From IMG/VR virus record IMGVR_UViG_3300050821_009314, positions 1 to 45,357 of that record: 45,357 nucleotides of DNA; one strand, written 5' to 3'. The notes below the pieces were generated by a model. That model was not told the origin of the DNA and did not search any database. It saw only the letters and a list, made by a program, of their open reading frames with translations. Source of the DNA: a virus. Shown here one piece after another: positions 24,023 through 40,230 of the stretch; position 1 is the stretch's first letter; each line of letters starts with the position of its first letter. Both the position numbers and the translations under genes were made by a program.

Positions 24023-24610
24023 TTAAGTCAGTCCAAACGCTGAAGCGCCTTGCCCAGCGTCCTTGAACCCGCTCATTAGTTTTGTTGCGGAATCGACGAG
24101 GTTACGCATCCATCCGCCGGTTGTGCTTCCCGTCATCTGGTTCTTGATGGCGTCCTGCTGCAAGCCCATCGCCTTGAGCGCGTCCCCTGTATCTGCTCCG
24201 TACAAAGACTCCATCCCGGCAGCTCCGGCCTGTTTGTTTTGCATGGTGGCGTTCACGTCTTCTGCTGCAATGCCTTCATTGGCCTTTGCCAGCCCTTGGG
24301 TCTTGGCGCGTGAAATCTTGTCCAGGAGCGCCGGAAGCGCAGCCGAATTTCCTGTGCGCGTTGCATCCAGACCAGCTTCGCCAGCTAAACTCCCGGCGGC
24401 CCCGCCCGCACCAGCGCCTGCCGACGTAAGCAACTCATTCAGCTGCGTTGGTGAAAAGGCATGATTAGCAGTCATCTCGCCGCGTAAAAACGGCAGCAAC
24501 TGCGCTTGTATCCCTTGGCCTTCGCTGAAAAGCGTTGAGCCTTGAGAGTTGAGCTGCCCAGAGGTTTGCTTTGCGGTATTACTTGCCCAGCTGTCGCCAA
24601 ACAATCCCAT
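24023..24610 (-). CDS. putative internal virion protein
   Basis: 195 residues. It begins MGLFGDSWASNTAKQ, contains an Ala/Gly-rich stretch (AGAGAGGAAGSLAGEAG, about 66-82) and amphipathic helices, like the small ejection proteins of short-tailed phages. No catalytic motif. First of a three-gene ejection-like set. Confidence 0.5.
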   Translation of the reverse strand: MGLFGDSWASNTAKQTSGQLNSQGSTLFSEGQGIQAQLLPFLRGEMTANHAFSPTQLNELLTSAGAGAGGAAGSLAGEAGLDATRTGNSAALPALLDKISRAKTQGLAKANEGIAAEDVNATMQNKQAGAAGMESLYGADTGDALKAMGLQQDAIKNQMTGSTTGGWMRNLVDSATKLMSGFKDAGQGASAFGLT

Positions 24611-24622
24611 TGAAGTTAATCC

Positions 24623-25936
24623 TCAGAACTTGTTGAAGTTGTGCGCTGCACTGCCATCCTCAAGAATGTAGTGCGCGTCTTCTTCTTTGCCGTCAATAAC
24701 GTGCAGGTTGTAAACAGTCCCGCGCCATGTTGCCACCATGCCCGAGAAAACTTCTTTCGCCGGAATGTAATCGTCACCAATTACCGGGCTGATGCCATGT
24801 CCAGGCGTAACCAGTCCGCGTCCCATATCAATCATCAGGCTGTTGTAGTTCTCGTGCACGATAAGCTCTGCGGGATGAAAGCCGGTGCGATTCCATATAC
24901 TGAATTGCAAAGGCAACGTATCAAATCTCCTGAACGCTCCATCTGCCATCAGAATTTTCGTGTCACCTGAAAAACATCCACCACCGCCGCCTGATCCGCC
25001 ACCTGTTCCGCCGCCGGCCCCGGACGTAACGACCTTGCCCAGCGGGAAGCGTCCGGGAGCCTGCCCGAGCACCGTGATGTTGGTCGTGACTTGCGCCGTA
25101 AAATTTCCACTCAGCAAGTCTGGATTGTCGATAAAGGCGTAATACGTTCCGAAAGCCCCCGGATCAACATTGCTTGGACATGACATCTGAATCGTGAGAC
25201 CGCCCAGAAAGAATGTCTGCGTTCCATTGATGGAGATAGCGGTCGAAGTGCCGACCTGAGAGATGCTTGTAACGGAAGCTGCCTGCGTAATGTCTGCCAG
25301 CAGATGTGGAGCTGCGCCCACAACCGGTGAAGAAACAGGGGTGTTAGACGCCTGCAGTTTCCCGATACGTGTAACCTTGGGAGTGGAAATGCGCTGCTTT
25401 CCAAGCCCAGCACCGCCTTGCTGTCCAGTAGAAGACGCTGTACCGCTGCCAGTCGAAGGCAGCAACGTCAGTTTGGTCGATCCCTTCAACATTAAAGGCG
25501 TCGGGTTAGCCAAGCCTCCAAGCACTGTAGGCGGAGACGGCCTTGATCCGGGATTCTGAGCGTATGCCCTTAAGTACCACGGCTGCTGTACGCCGCTATC
25601 GTTCAATGCCGGAAGATGAAATACGTGGCCACGGCTTGATTTAAGCTCCATGACGTGAGGTTGCGGAAAAGATGGCGAGTTGTCTGCCTCCAGAAAGTAA
25701 TGGATTGACCGGCTGACCTCTGCACCATGCGATAGGGTTGCGTGGACCATTTCGCCGTTGGCCTTAACGGTAATGGCATTGATGGGTGGCGGCGGCGTCA
25801 GATCGCCTGTTACCGCAACTCCTGCTCCTGCGGCAACATTGTTGATCCCGGTGATCAGACGATCAAGAAACGCGGCATGCAGTGCATCTCTTGTACGCAG
25901 ATCGGCCAAGAATCTGTCTTCCGTAAGGCTACGCAC
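24623..25936 (-). CDS. tail protein with C-terminal Hint (intein-like) domain
   Basis: 437 residues from a GTG that overlaps the stop of the long tail protein; an upstream ATG adds 14. N-terminal region (1-300) begins RSLTEDRFLADLRTRDALH and is a phage structural domain. A poly-Gly linker (GGGTGGGSGGGGG) then meets Cys321 in CFSGDTKI, followed by T-x-x-H in LVTPGHG (377-380) and a C-terminal AHN (433) four residues before the end. These are the A, B and G blocks of a Hint domain, so the protein may cleave itself at Cys321. No C-extein nucleophile is present (HNF). Clear fold, function inferred. Confidence 0.82.
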   Translation of the reverse strand: MRSLTEDRFLADLRTRDALHAAFLDRLITGINNVAAGAGVAVTGDLTPPPPINAITVKANGEMVHATLSHGAEVSRSIHYFLEADNSPSFPQPHVMELKSSRGHVFHLPALNDSGVQQPWYLRAYAQNPGSRPSPPTVLGGLANPTPLMLKGSTKLTLLPSTGSGTASSTGQQGGAGLGKQRISTPKVTRIGKLQASNTPVSSPVVGAAPHLLADITQAASVTSISQVGTSTAISINGTQTFFLGGLTIQMSCPSNVDPGAFGTYYAFIDNPDLLSGNFTAQVTTNITVLGQAPGRFPLGKVVTSGAGGGTGGGSGGGGGCFSGDTKILMADGAFRRFDTLPLQFSIWNRTGFHPAELIVHENYNSLMIDMGRGLVTPGHGISPVIGDDYIPAKEVFSGMVATWRGTVYNLHVIDGKEEDAHYILEDGSAAHNFNKF

Positions 25937-28900
25937 TAGATGCCCCCATGAGCGGCATGGTCGGATGCGGCCCGCCAACCATAATCATCTTGGACACAGT
26001 CGCGCTTGATTCTCCAGTGCCGCTGAATTGTGCAAACACGCGATTACCCGCTACGTTGATCGATCTTTCCAGATCATCAGATGGTGACGCCTGCAATGAA
26101 ATTCCGCCGGTAGCCGACAAAACTGACCATGTATGCTTAGCGTCGGCATTCACGCGGTTGGACAGAAAATTTACTGCCATCACTCCTGAGCCGTAGGCAT
26201 TCAACTGCAAATATGTGAACAGCTTGCGATGGAATCCCAGCAGCGGATTCTGTTTACTCATGCCTGAGTTCACAAATCCATACGTGGTATAAAGCCATGG
26301 AATAGGTGTCGTGTTGTCGTCCTGAGTCAATCCCGCCTGAAGCTGATATATCTTTCCACTGGAATTACCATTGCAGAGCAGCAATGGACGGCTGACCCCG
26401 TCCGCGCGCGTTACAAAGTCTGCATATGGGGCGTTAATTTGCCAGATGTTCCATTTGCGCTTCATGTCCACGGAGACAAGGTTGCCAAACATCGTGACGT
26501 GCATCTGCGCCATAGCAGCCAGCTCTTTGATGTCGCTGATCCCCTGGTAGCCCATCACGAACTCAACATTGGGCGACTGCGGATTAGAGTTGACCGGGGC
26601 CTGAGGAAGATAAACATTCGGCGTGGCCATGGGTGCGCCAATATGAATACGCCTGTTTTGGATGTCGACTTTCAGCCACATCGTCCCTGCGGCGCTCCAG
26701 TTGATCAAGTCCCATGCCTTCTGAATCTCCCATGCAATAGGAATAGGCGCTCCGCCAACAAAGACGTACACGCCTTCACGGCAGGCTGTCGCCATCCATT
26801 CCTCGCCCACGTCATAGCTCCAGATAGAGCATGTTCCAACGCGATTTGAGACCTCATGCACATCCCAATCTGCAGGTTCGTCACCCTTGGAATCGCTGGT
26901 TACAAACATGGACTGCTGCTTGAGGAAGTAGAGCTGGTCGTACATCACAAACGCGCCATTGGTCGCCTGATTGTTTCGCGCCGAAAGTCCAACGTTTCCT
27001 GTAATGGCCGCGACGGCCTCAGGCTGACCCGCATAGCTTGCCGCAACATCTGACAGGTTGACCGGCTGCGAAATATCGAACGGCTCAATCCTGTCCACGG
27101 TAACTGTTGAGCCATTGGTGAGATTTGTGGCGTACAGGCGTATGACCAGATTGGAAGGAACCGTTGCGAACTTGGTTACCAGCAACGTTCCGGTATAGAC
27201 TGCCTGCGAAGTCGTCATGCTCGATAAAGCCAGCGTGAATGATCCGTAAACCGTTCCATAGCCGCGCTGCGTATCGAAGGTCGTCAAGTCCACAACCAGA
27301 TTGCCAGCGTCTGTGTTTGTCCCTTTGGCCGCTGTAACGCGGATCGAGTAGGCAACGTTCTGCTGGAATATCGGGGCCTGGTAAGCGTCCTCAAACGCTC
27401 CCTGCGTGATCATTCCGTAAACACTCTGCGCGCTTCCAGTCGTGTTCTGTATCTGGTAGGACTGGCCGAATATCGTGCTTGTGACCAGCGAGCCGCCAGA
27501 GCCATTGGTAGCGTCAGGAGTCCATCCAGATGGCAGCAGTGACGCTCCACTCGTTGCCTGATACCCGCCATTGAATGAAATATTCAGCAGGTTGACGATC
27601 TTTAGCTGCTCTTGCCCATAAAACATCCGGTCGGCATACAGCACATTCCACCGGCATGCTCCAAGCTCGCGCAAAGAGAACAGGTCATTGCCTGGCACAT
27701 CAATTTCAGTCGAATCGAGCAGGACGGCATCCGTGAACACAAACGAGGCAGTAGTGGAAACATTGTCATTCACTACGGTCGGCTGAAATGTAAACGGCTG
27801 TCCGTTCACGATGGTCGACACTGGTACTGGAATGTAATAGAAGAAAGCTCCCGGAACGCCGTTTGCACCAGCCTCAGTGAACGCGACAACCCTGCCGATT
27901 ACATCCGGCGGGCCTATGGGCAGATTGGAACAGGTGATTGAGGCCGTCGATTGATTGGTCGTAAACGTCACCGGCGGCGAAGGTCTGGACAGGAAACCAT
28001 TGCGCGTTTTGAACAGCACAACCGCCTGTCTCGTACCGGGGCCAATGTTCAATACGGTATTGGTGATAACAACCTGACCAGTACCGCTGTCATTGCCAAA
28101 GATGGGGTTGGTCTGGTTTGATCCGCCCACAAAGTTCGATCCGGGATCAATAGAGAAGATGCGCCCGAATGTTTGGGCCGACCCTGTCTCTACCTGACTG
28201 CCGATAGTTGCGGCACCAGCAAAACCGTTCACCGTGAACTGACTTCCAGCTACCGTTGCGATAGTGGCATTGGTCACGTTGAAGATGCCGTTGCCGTTGG
28301 TTGTGTTCTGCACCGTCACCAGATCGCCCACAACAGGAGCAGAGCCGGATACTTGCGCCCACGTGTAAGTCGCTACGCCAGCAGAGAGAGCCGTGGCATT
28401 GATGTTCAGCACTCCGCCGTTTGGCGTCTGCACAACTCCCCAAGTGTTATTCCAGTTTGTTGGCGTTGCACCCTGAATGTTGACCGTCCCGCCTTCAACC
28501 ACATTAGGCGCTGGCGTCGAAAGCGTGACCGTGGCAATCGTTACCTGATAGGTCGTAGTGCCGGGAGGATCAAGGCGCACAAAGTTGCTCGATGGCGCTT
28601 GGAAGGTAAAGAACGGACGCGGAGCGGAAGCATTGACCGACAGTCCAGATCCCAGCGAAGTGACCTGATACGTGCCATTTACAAACGGCGAATTGGTAAA
28701 CGTCATGTAGACGTAAACCGCAATACCAGCTTGAAACTGCTGGACTAATACAGGGTCTTGAGGCGCATTGGAGTTGCCATAATAGACCGTGATAGTCGTT
28801 CCGGCGTTAGGGCTTCCAGGGCCTGCACTCCAGAGCAGCTTGCCGCTGGCTGAGATGGTGACCTGTGCAGGCTGAGTGATGCTGCTGATTGGGAAATTGG

Positions 28901-29624
28901 TTAATGGGAACGCCGTACCAACCGCAGCCGTGGCCGGGGTGTTCGCAGAGGTAAAGTTAGCCTCAAACTGCGTACCACTCAGGCCAGTCGAGATTACTGT
29001 AAGCACTGCGCCATTCAGGGCGCTTACGCTGGGCAACTGTATCTGCACAATCTCGCCAGCAGTAAAGCTGTTCAGGGCCTGGAACGTTACAACGTTGGAC
29101 GCAATGGAGTAGCTGGTGATGTTTGCCAGAGCAGGGTTAGACGCTGCATTGACCTGATACTGCGCATTCGCTCCCGGCCCTTCCTGCGAGATGCGGTCGA
29201 ACACAGAGCCATCGAATTGCCACGGCGTGTCATAGCCTCCGAATGGGGTTGAAAGGGAAATGTACTCACGATTGAACGCAGAGGTTGATTGCGCCATGTC
29301 GCCAGCGTTGAAGAAGTTTACGGAAGTCAGGACGCCGGGATTGAGCGTCACATTCTCAACCCATAGCTGACCGGTAACGTCTAGCGCCAGAGTGCGCAAT
29401 GTGCCATCAAGCGTCCGCATAGTCTTGACGTACACGAAATTGCTAGCTTGCCCTGAGGAAAGCACTGCAGCCAGTCCGGGCCGCGTTGTGAACGCGCCAA
29501 TAGGGAAATCGCAGTCCCACGTGAGCGGAGATGCCCCTTCAGGCAAGGCTTCAGGCGGGGCCTGAGTGATCAGCCCGCCAAAGTTATCAAGGGTTACGGA
29601 TTGTTTGCCGTGAGTGGAGAACAA
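25929..29624 (-). CDS. large tail/receptor-binding-type structural protein
   Basis: 1231 residues, the longest gene. The N-terminal domain NFGGLITQAPPEALPEGASP is found in other phage tail or stopper proteins. The middle (about 170-540) is several all-beta repeats ending in FNVT/FEANFT (for example GNGIFNVTNATIATVAGSQF). The C-terminal 400 residues are a WD-like or sandwich region (FVMYDQLYFLKQQSMFVTS). Probably the main tail tube, nozzle or fibre-associated protein. Position upstream of terL is unusual. Confidence 0.68.
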   Translation of the reverse strand: MFSTHGKQSVTLDNFGGLITQAPPEALPEGASPLTWDCDFPIGAFTTRPGLAAVLSSGQASNFVYVKTMRTLDGTLRTLALDVTGQLWVENVTLNPGVLTSVNFFNAGDMAQSTSAFNREYISLSTPFGGYDTPWQFDGSVFDRISQEGPGANAQYQVNAASNPALANITSYSIASNVVTFQALNSFTAGEIVQIQLPSVSALNGAVLTVISTGLSGTQFEANFTSANTPATAAVGTAFPLTNFPISSITQPAQVTISASGKLLWSAGPGSPNAGTTITVYYGNSNAPQDPVLVQQFQAGIAVYVYMTFTNSPFVNGTYQVTSLGSGLSVNASAPRPFFTFQAPSSNFVRLDPPGTTTYQVTIATVTLSTPAPNVVEGGTVNIQGATPTNWNNTWGVVQTPNGGVLNINATALSAGVATYTWAQVSGSAPVVGDLVTVQNTTNGNGIFNVTNATIATVAGSQFTVNGFAGAATIGSQVETGSAQTFGRIFSIDPGSNFVGGSNQTNPIFGNDSGTGQVVITNTVLNIGPGTRQAVVLFKTRNGFLSRPSPPVTFTTNQSTASITCSNLPIGPPDVIGRVVAFTEAGANGVPGAFFYYIPVPVSTIVNGQPFTFQPTVVNDNVSTTASFVFTDAVLLDSTEIDVPGNDLFSLRELGACRWNVLYADRMFYGQEQLKIVNLLNISFNGGYQATSGASLLPSGWTPDATNGSGGSLVTSTIFGQSYQIQNTTGSAQSVYGMITQGAFEDAYQAPIFQQNVAYSIRVTAAKGTNTDAGNLVVDLTTFDTQRGYGTVYGSFTLALSSMTTSQAVYTGTLLVTKFATVPSNLVIRLYATNLTNGSTVTVDRIEPFDISQPVNLSDVAASYAGQPEAVAAITGNVGLSARNNQATNGAFVMYDQLYFLKQQSMFVTSDSKGDEPADWDVHEVSNRVGTCSIWSYDVGEEWMATACREGVYVFVGGAPIPIAWEIQKAWDLINWSAAGTMWLKVDIQNRRIHIGAPMATPNVYLPQAPVNSNPQSPNVEFVMGYQGISDIKELAAMAQMHVTMFGNLVSVDMKRKWNIWQINAPYADFVTRADGVSRPLLLCNGNSSGKIYQLQAGLTQDDNTTPIPWLYTTYGFVNSGMSKQNPLLGFHRKLFTYLQLNAYGSGVMAVNFLSNRVNADAKHTWSVLSATGGISLQASPSDDLERSINVAGNRVFAQFSGTGESSATVSKMIMVGGPHPTMPLMGASSA

Positions 29625-39915: not shown

Positions 39916-40230
39916 CTATCTAACACCATGGCGCTTAGGTTGCTTACCCGTGGCCTTGCTCCGGTTGCAACGCCTGCAAGCTAAAACTATGTTTTCCGGG
40001 AGAGACGATCCTCCATTAAATTCACAGCTGTAATGGTCTAATTCCAATCCCTGAAAATGAACCCACCTAGCTGGTTCGCCAGAGCGCTTACGGGTCCAAT
40101 TAATAGTTCCAGTCTTAGGACAATAATGGCACTTTGCCTCCGTTCTACCTCCGGGCAAGCATCCGTATCTAATTGCCACGGCAATGCGTGTCGCCTGTGG
40201 TATGGGTCTCTTTTTATAAATTCGTGGCAT
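39916..40230 (-). CDS. HNH endonuclease-like protein
   Basis: 104 residues. CHYCPKTG, LELDHYSCEFNGGSS, NIVLACRRCNRSK: the complete Cys4-type HNH motif with Asp-His and Asn-x-x-x-x-Cys. Small size is typical of phage HNH nucleases. It ends one base before the initiator ATG. Confidence 0.82.
   Translation of the reverse strand: MPRIYKKRPIPQATRIAVAIRYGCLPGGRTEAKCHYCPKTGTINWTRKRSGEPARWVHFQGLELDHYSCEFNGGSSLPENIVLACRRCNRSKATGKQPKRHGVR

Follow-up and report, generated by a model that had tools for sequence, protein, structure and literature searches.

The window analysed here is a stretch of 45,357 nucleotides and represents a viral record. It contains a gene for a protein with a C-terminal Hint domain behind a poly-Gly linker (Table 1). 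The gene lies on the minus strand, which the original prediction had left unstated. The GTG start at position 25936 agrees with the starts found in homologues. The positions previously given for the catalytic residues were exact, namely Cys321, T377-P-G-H380 (TPGH, 377-380) and H432-N433, followed by FNKF. The large protein encoded upstream possesses a hot spot around residues 56-61, at which its relatives have insertions of up to about 550 residues, consisting mainly of beta-rich repeats, or none at all. A gene for an HNH endonuclease is located at positions 39916-40230 of the window (Pfam HNH, E 1.3e-6). The GC content was considered as a sign of recent transfer and was uninformative (0.50 for the Hint, 0.56 for the N-terminal part and 0.52 for the window).

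Table 1. Features of the Hint gene and its neighbours (window coordinates)
Feature	Position	Strand	Remarks
Whole Hint gene	24623..25936	-	437 aa from GTG
Alternative start of the Hint gene	25978	-	TTG
N-terminal part, residues 1-186	25379..25936	-	helical hairpin and FN3-like domain
Beta-rich domain, about residues 211-305	25022..25306	-	
Gly-rich linker, residues 306-320	24977..25021	-	15 residues; last is Gly320 (-1 residue)
Hint domain, residues 321-433	24638..24976	-	113 residues; Cys321, T377xxH380, His422, His432, Asn433
Phe-Asn-Lys-Phe after HN	24626..24637	-	stop TGA at 24623-24625
Upstream gene	25929..29624	-	1231-aa beta-rich structural-type protein
Next gene downstream	24023..24610	-	order kept in relatives

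The two halves of the protein were modelled apart; a single multi-domain alignment had misplaced the Hint block. The AF2 model of the FN3-like N-terminal part reached a mean pLDDT of 82 and aligned with FN3 domains at Z scores of about 11, with tail proteins among the viral matches. The beta domain preceding the Gly linker was modelled with low confidence. No match to the N-terminal part was found in PHROG or Pfam, and none to the Hint protein of the window in PHROGs, NCBIfam or the phage collection. A function as tail protein is plausible. Moreover, the gene position, the FN3-like fold and the relatives point to a location of the gene product in the virion.

The fold model of the C-terminal domain, as had been predicted, is that of a Hint domain, far beyond chance. 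Residues 321-433 were modelled with a pLDDT of about 78-91, and the model aligned end to end with solved inteins, BIL domains and Hedgehog, so that Cys321 coincided with the first residue of the intein and Asn433 with its last. The best Foldseek match was Tetrahymena BIL2 (3e-6; VIA Z 12.3). Z scores were 10-12 against inteins, 11.8 against the Clostridium thermocellum BIL domain 2lwy (rmsd 2.2, 108 aligned residues), 11.8 against a Vint domain (8r2c) and 10.5 against Hedgehog (1at0). In Pfam, the Vint family matched with an E-value of 7.9e-5, its 23 bits lying below the curated cut-off of 27 bits; the Hint of locus L119 passed this cut-off with 39 bits (E 8.4e-10). A profile built from nine phage Hints found 2lwy as its best PDB sequence match (E 2e-5). 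BIL domains hence rank first by sequence and among the top matches by structure, and with the catalytic motifs intact the earlier description as a bacterial intein-like domain holds.

Eight compact phage Hints with a mean pairwise identity of 31% were compared. Seven columns were invariant: C1, T57 and H60 (block B), H102 (block F), G108, and H112-N113 (block G). Every tested catalytic residue is among them. The probability of finding all four of T, H, H and N among the six invariant columns other than Cys (of 112) is 2.4e-6, a value to be read with the ascertainment in mind, as the eight domains had been trimmed with the help of their HN ends and one search pattern included Cys; the columns of the block B Thr and His and of the block F His are free of it. 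The terminal HN is retained in all eight domains. It is followed by F, I, K, F, I, V, I and I, and never by Cys, Ser or Thr. Gly at position -1 is not universal, as Val was found in L115, Thr in L171 and Tyr in L123. A T7-like Providencia phage, PSTNGR1, also encodes a protein with a C-terminal Hint-like domain (QPB11246.1, L125:3557-4510). This domain reads YLVSS at the expected HN position and apparently lacks the Asn cyclisation.

An initial search of 20 related records showed the N-terminal part as a separate protein of ~200-240 amino acids in 13 of them, and homologues were detected in 42 loci, with some overlap among the records. Some 50 relatives showed no Hint extension. Homologues with a visible end stop near PKRxx or shortly past a Gly-Gly-x-Gly motif (0 with an extension), and the beta-rich domain is missing from them. 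A single relative, in L158, has a poly-Gly tail without a Hint. As relatives terminate near PKRxx and almost always lack a Gly tail, the window phage has gained the entire beta-Gly-Hint block as one unit.

Among records linked to the window by terminase or by the Hint protein, other compact Hints were found only in G009 and G014 (L116 has the same sequence as G014). In both, the Hint resides inside a homologue of the upstream 1231-aa protein, placed after a FATVSLT-type strand and a Gly run. In G009, a TIG domain precedes the Hint and the reading frame runs on past it. In G014, the Hint ends with ...HNKQLK-stop and the remainder restarts from AAGGGAGTAACC-ATG, so that the protein consists of two chains. 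A frameshift or assembly artefact was considered for this stop and rejected. The stop looks real because a second contig, L116, contains it as well and because a Shine-Dalgarno-like AAGGGAG with an ATG comes after it. At L111:2148-7469 (the same in L116 and L117) a large beta-rich structural gene is split by a TAG directly after the Hint; its second half restarts at an ATG with a Shine-Dalgarno-like site, midway through a beta-sandwich domain. The corresponding genes of L104, L106 and L112 are likewise split near this site.

In other phages, a C-terminal Hint was found in L118, L119 and L171 and, as a more divergent version, in L123, where the protein is a J/tail-fibre homologue (PHROG 5616, 2e-72). 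An internal Hint is present in L115. The L119 Hint gene comes after a gene for the head-closure protein Hc3 (PHROG 578, 1e-111) and is followed by a GNAT acetyltransferase gene and a DUF6445 gene (L119:5602-6635). An acetyltransferase gene also adjoins the gene for the Hint-less beta-domain protein of Pam1. Lambda-J-like tail proteins at L001:2744-5500 and L002:3520-5184 begin with MGGGSCF...VHNKGGGG, i.e. with an N-terminal Hint flanked by Gly on both sides, and two GNAT acetyltransferase-like genes lie just upstream; L120 and L122 contain a similar N-terminal Hint. At L121:4206-5489 a degenerate tandem-repeat protein (PFTYQAPARQPFIANARQ) ends with poly-Gly and a Hint. Free-standing homing endonucleases beside the Hint genes of L111 and L115 were considered as movers and rejected, as they are also found in many Hint-less loci. 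Scanning contigs of GTDB genomes with either the Hint profile or the J-type domain, an approach that relies on short near-exact peptides, gave no confirmed relative.

The beta domain of the window protein resembles those of L118, L119, L123 and gp10 of cyanophage Pam1. The profile match had an E-value of 9e-10, whereas the best among 2,000 shuffles reached 0.02, and pairwise matches were obtained as well. Hint-less homologues of the L118 protein (L172, L174-L177) carry a Gly-rich tail and a short peptide at the end, for example GGGGFGQGGGDGD-ATPPVH. The L118 protein itself ends with GGGGAHGTGGGGGA-Hint-ISPPPQ, and in this family the residues past HN are found where the Hint-less homologues have their short C-terminal peptide. 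This comparison, made by eye on short Gly-rich ends, is suggestive of an insertion of the L118 Hint between Gly tail and final peptide. Cutting or splicing out the Hint would consequently restore the C-terminus of the relatives, an argument based on the L118 family and not on the family of the window protein.

The original prediction had judged splicing unlikely on the grounds that only four residues, beginning with Phe, follow HN. These residues are indeed present and there is no +1 nucleophile. Nevertheless, the conclusion was too strong, since type A BILs without a +1 nucleophile can splice, although cleavage dominates (PMC4031507). In addition, HN is kept in 8/8 compact phage Hints, and the L118 family shows the post-HN residues at the position of a C-terminal peptide.

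We consider it fairly likely that the Hint is a self-processing domain resembling A-type BILs, which sits in a flexible Gly linker and cuts at Gly320/Cys321 and after Asn433. As its chemical core is intact, the domain probably cuts itself off. The fold model, the motifs, the conserved catalytic residues and the occurrence of one module in unrelated structural proteins are observations; its reactivity and the dominant product are inferred. An N-to-S acyl shift at Gly320-Cys321, aided by T377 and H380, would yield a thioester, and cyclisation of Asn433, aided by H432, would free FNKF. The thioester would then be hydrolysed, leaving a protein that ends with ...GGGGG, or it would react with the amine released on Phe434, as known from type A BILs, resulting in ...GGGGG-FNKF. 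By either route the Hint would be gone and a Gly-rich C-terminus would remain, as in the Hint-less carriers of the beta domain. Some ligation to FNKF perhaps takes place. On this reading, the Hint would be mostly a passenger, tolerated since it lies in floppy Gly linkers and removes itself.

The resemblance to the A-type BIL of C. thermocellum (2lwy) comprises the Hint fold, Cys1, TxxH, the terminal His-Asn and the lack of a +1 nucleophile. A-type BILs are located in variable regions, and the phage Hint is likewise missing from relatives and found in differing host proteins. The described BILs reside in bacterial proteins, whereas the phage Hints occur in structural-cluster proteins, follow a Gly-rich linker, frequently lie 4-8 residues ahead of the C-terminus and are shorter (109-119 aa). 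In type A BILs, His-Asn is retained, a +1 nucleophile is missing and cleavage is the usual outcome; splicing can also occur, through attack of the freed amine on the N-terminal thioester (PMC4031507, PMC5874633, PMC7765530). Since the phage Hints fit these features, removal of the Hint is to be expected.

A class 1 intein would require a +1 Cys, Ser or Thr, where the window protein has Phe434, and a conserved insertion site with both flanks, whereas the N-terminal homologues end before the beta-Gly-Hint block. The Hedgehog Hog domain (1at0) shares the Hint fold and the Gly-Cys-Phe junction, which in Hedgehog marks the C-terminus of the processed protein, but the window Hint has no sterol-recognition region and retains the intein-type His-Asn. 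Vint (PF14623, 8r2c) is the best Pfam match and a close structural one; however, the match is below the Pfam cut-off, and by Pfam the window protein lacks a VWA domain, showing an FN3-like fold instead. Vint as described is eukaryotic (PMC2362128). Phage TerL inteins, such as those of phiCbK (PMC3556154) and of the related phages L067, L071 and L074, are phage-borne members of the Hint superfamily as well. They are found in an enzyme gene, and those of L067, L071 and L074 are followed by Cys, while the window Hint is followed by Phe and sits in a variable structural-cluster protein. The terminase large-subunit genes at L071:8783-11332, L074:4546-7122 and L067:1-2163 contain these intein-like insertions ending with HNC, and thus canonical-looking TerL inteins and structural-gene Hints without a +1 nucleophile occur in the same phage group.

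Alternatively, the Hint might be folded and unreactive, i.e. a decayed intein relative serving as a structural end-cap. The lack of a +1 nucleophile, the rare and patchy occurrence with three cases among the related phages searched, and the PSTNGR1 C-terminus that seems to lack HN are in line with such a cap. We regard it as rather unlikely, since the residues left invariant in eight diverged domains are the catalytic ones, and a structural cap would need neither Cys1 nor the block B Thr and His nor the terminal Asn.

It is still less probable that an external amine or hydroxyl captures the Gly320 thioester and the protein thereby becomes attached covalently via its Gly tail, in the style of Hedgehog or the ciliate BUBL proteins. 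The Gly-Cys-Phe junction and a Gly tail long enough to reach a partner would suit this chemistry. Furthermore, ciliate BIL2, a top structural match, forms isopeptide bonds and conjugates a ubiquitin-like domain to lysines (PMC8616854). The BIL2 of the Tetrahymena BUBL1 polyubiquitin locus (6y75, 6tmm) is also a Hint with intein-type ends. The window protein has no downstream domain; upstream it carries the N-terminal part with its FN3-like model and the beta-rich domain, the latter modelled at low confidence, apparently in place of ubiquitin-like domains. Against conjugation, no acceptor or acceptor-binding domain was seen, the protein ends four residues past HN, and a comparable Gly tail is the normal C-terminus of the Hint-less L118 relatives. 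Conservation of Asn433 indicates that the C-terminal reaction matters, which neither a Hedgehog-like role nor such conjugation would require. A coupling of the activated Gly tail to an amine or hydroxyl of a virion protein or the host surface thus appears improbable to us; if true, it would constitute an enzyme-free, ubiquitin-like conjugation system within the phage particle.

Least probable is processing as a controlled maturation step on which the phage depends, e.g. release of the Hint once in the virion, for although the catalytic residues are conserved and the Hints are placed at flexible ends, most related phages manage without a Hint and its position varies between genes. This patchy distribution and changing position favour a largely passenger-like domain over an essential step.

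Self-processing Hint domains studied so far belong to enzymes, secreted proteins and Hedgehog, and our literature search found no account of such domains in phage structural proteins. Here, a compact Hint with almost exclusively catalytic invariant residues was found in no fewer than eight phage proteins, of which several belong to the tail or structural cluster; most of these Hints lie behind a Gly-rich linker. If these domains are active, phages would remodel their own structural proteins after translation and without a protease, using a remodelling domain that lacks a homing endonuclease and is found across unrelated proteins. The compact Hints would further provide very small domains (about 110 aa) for self-cleavage or ligation.
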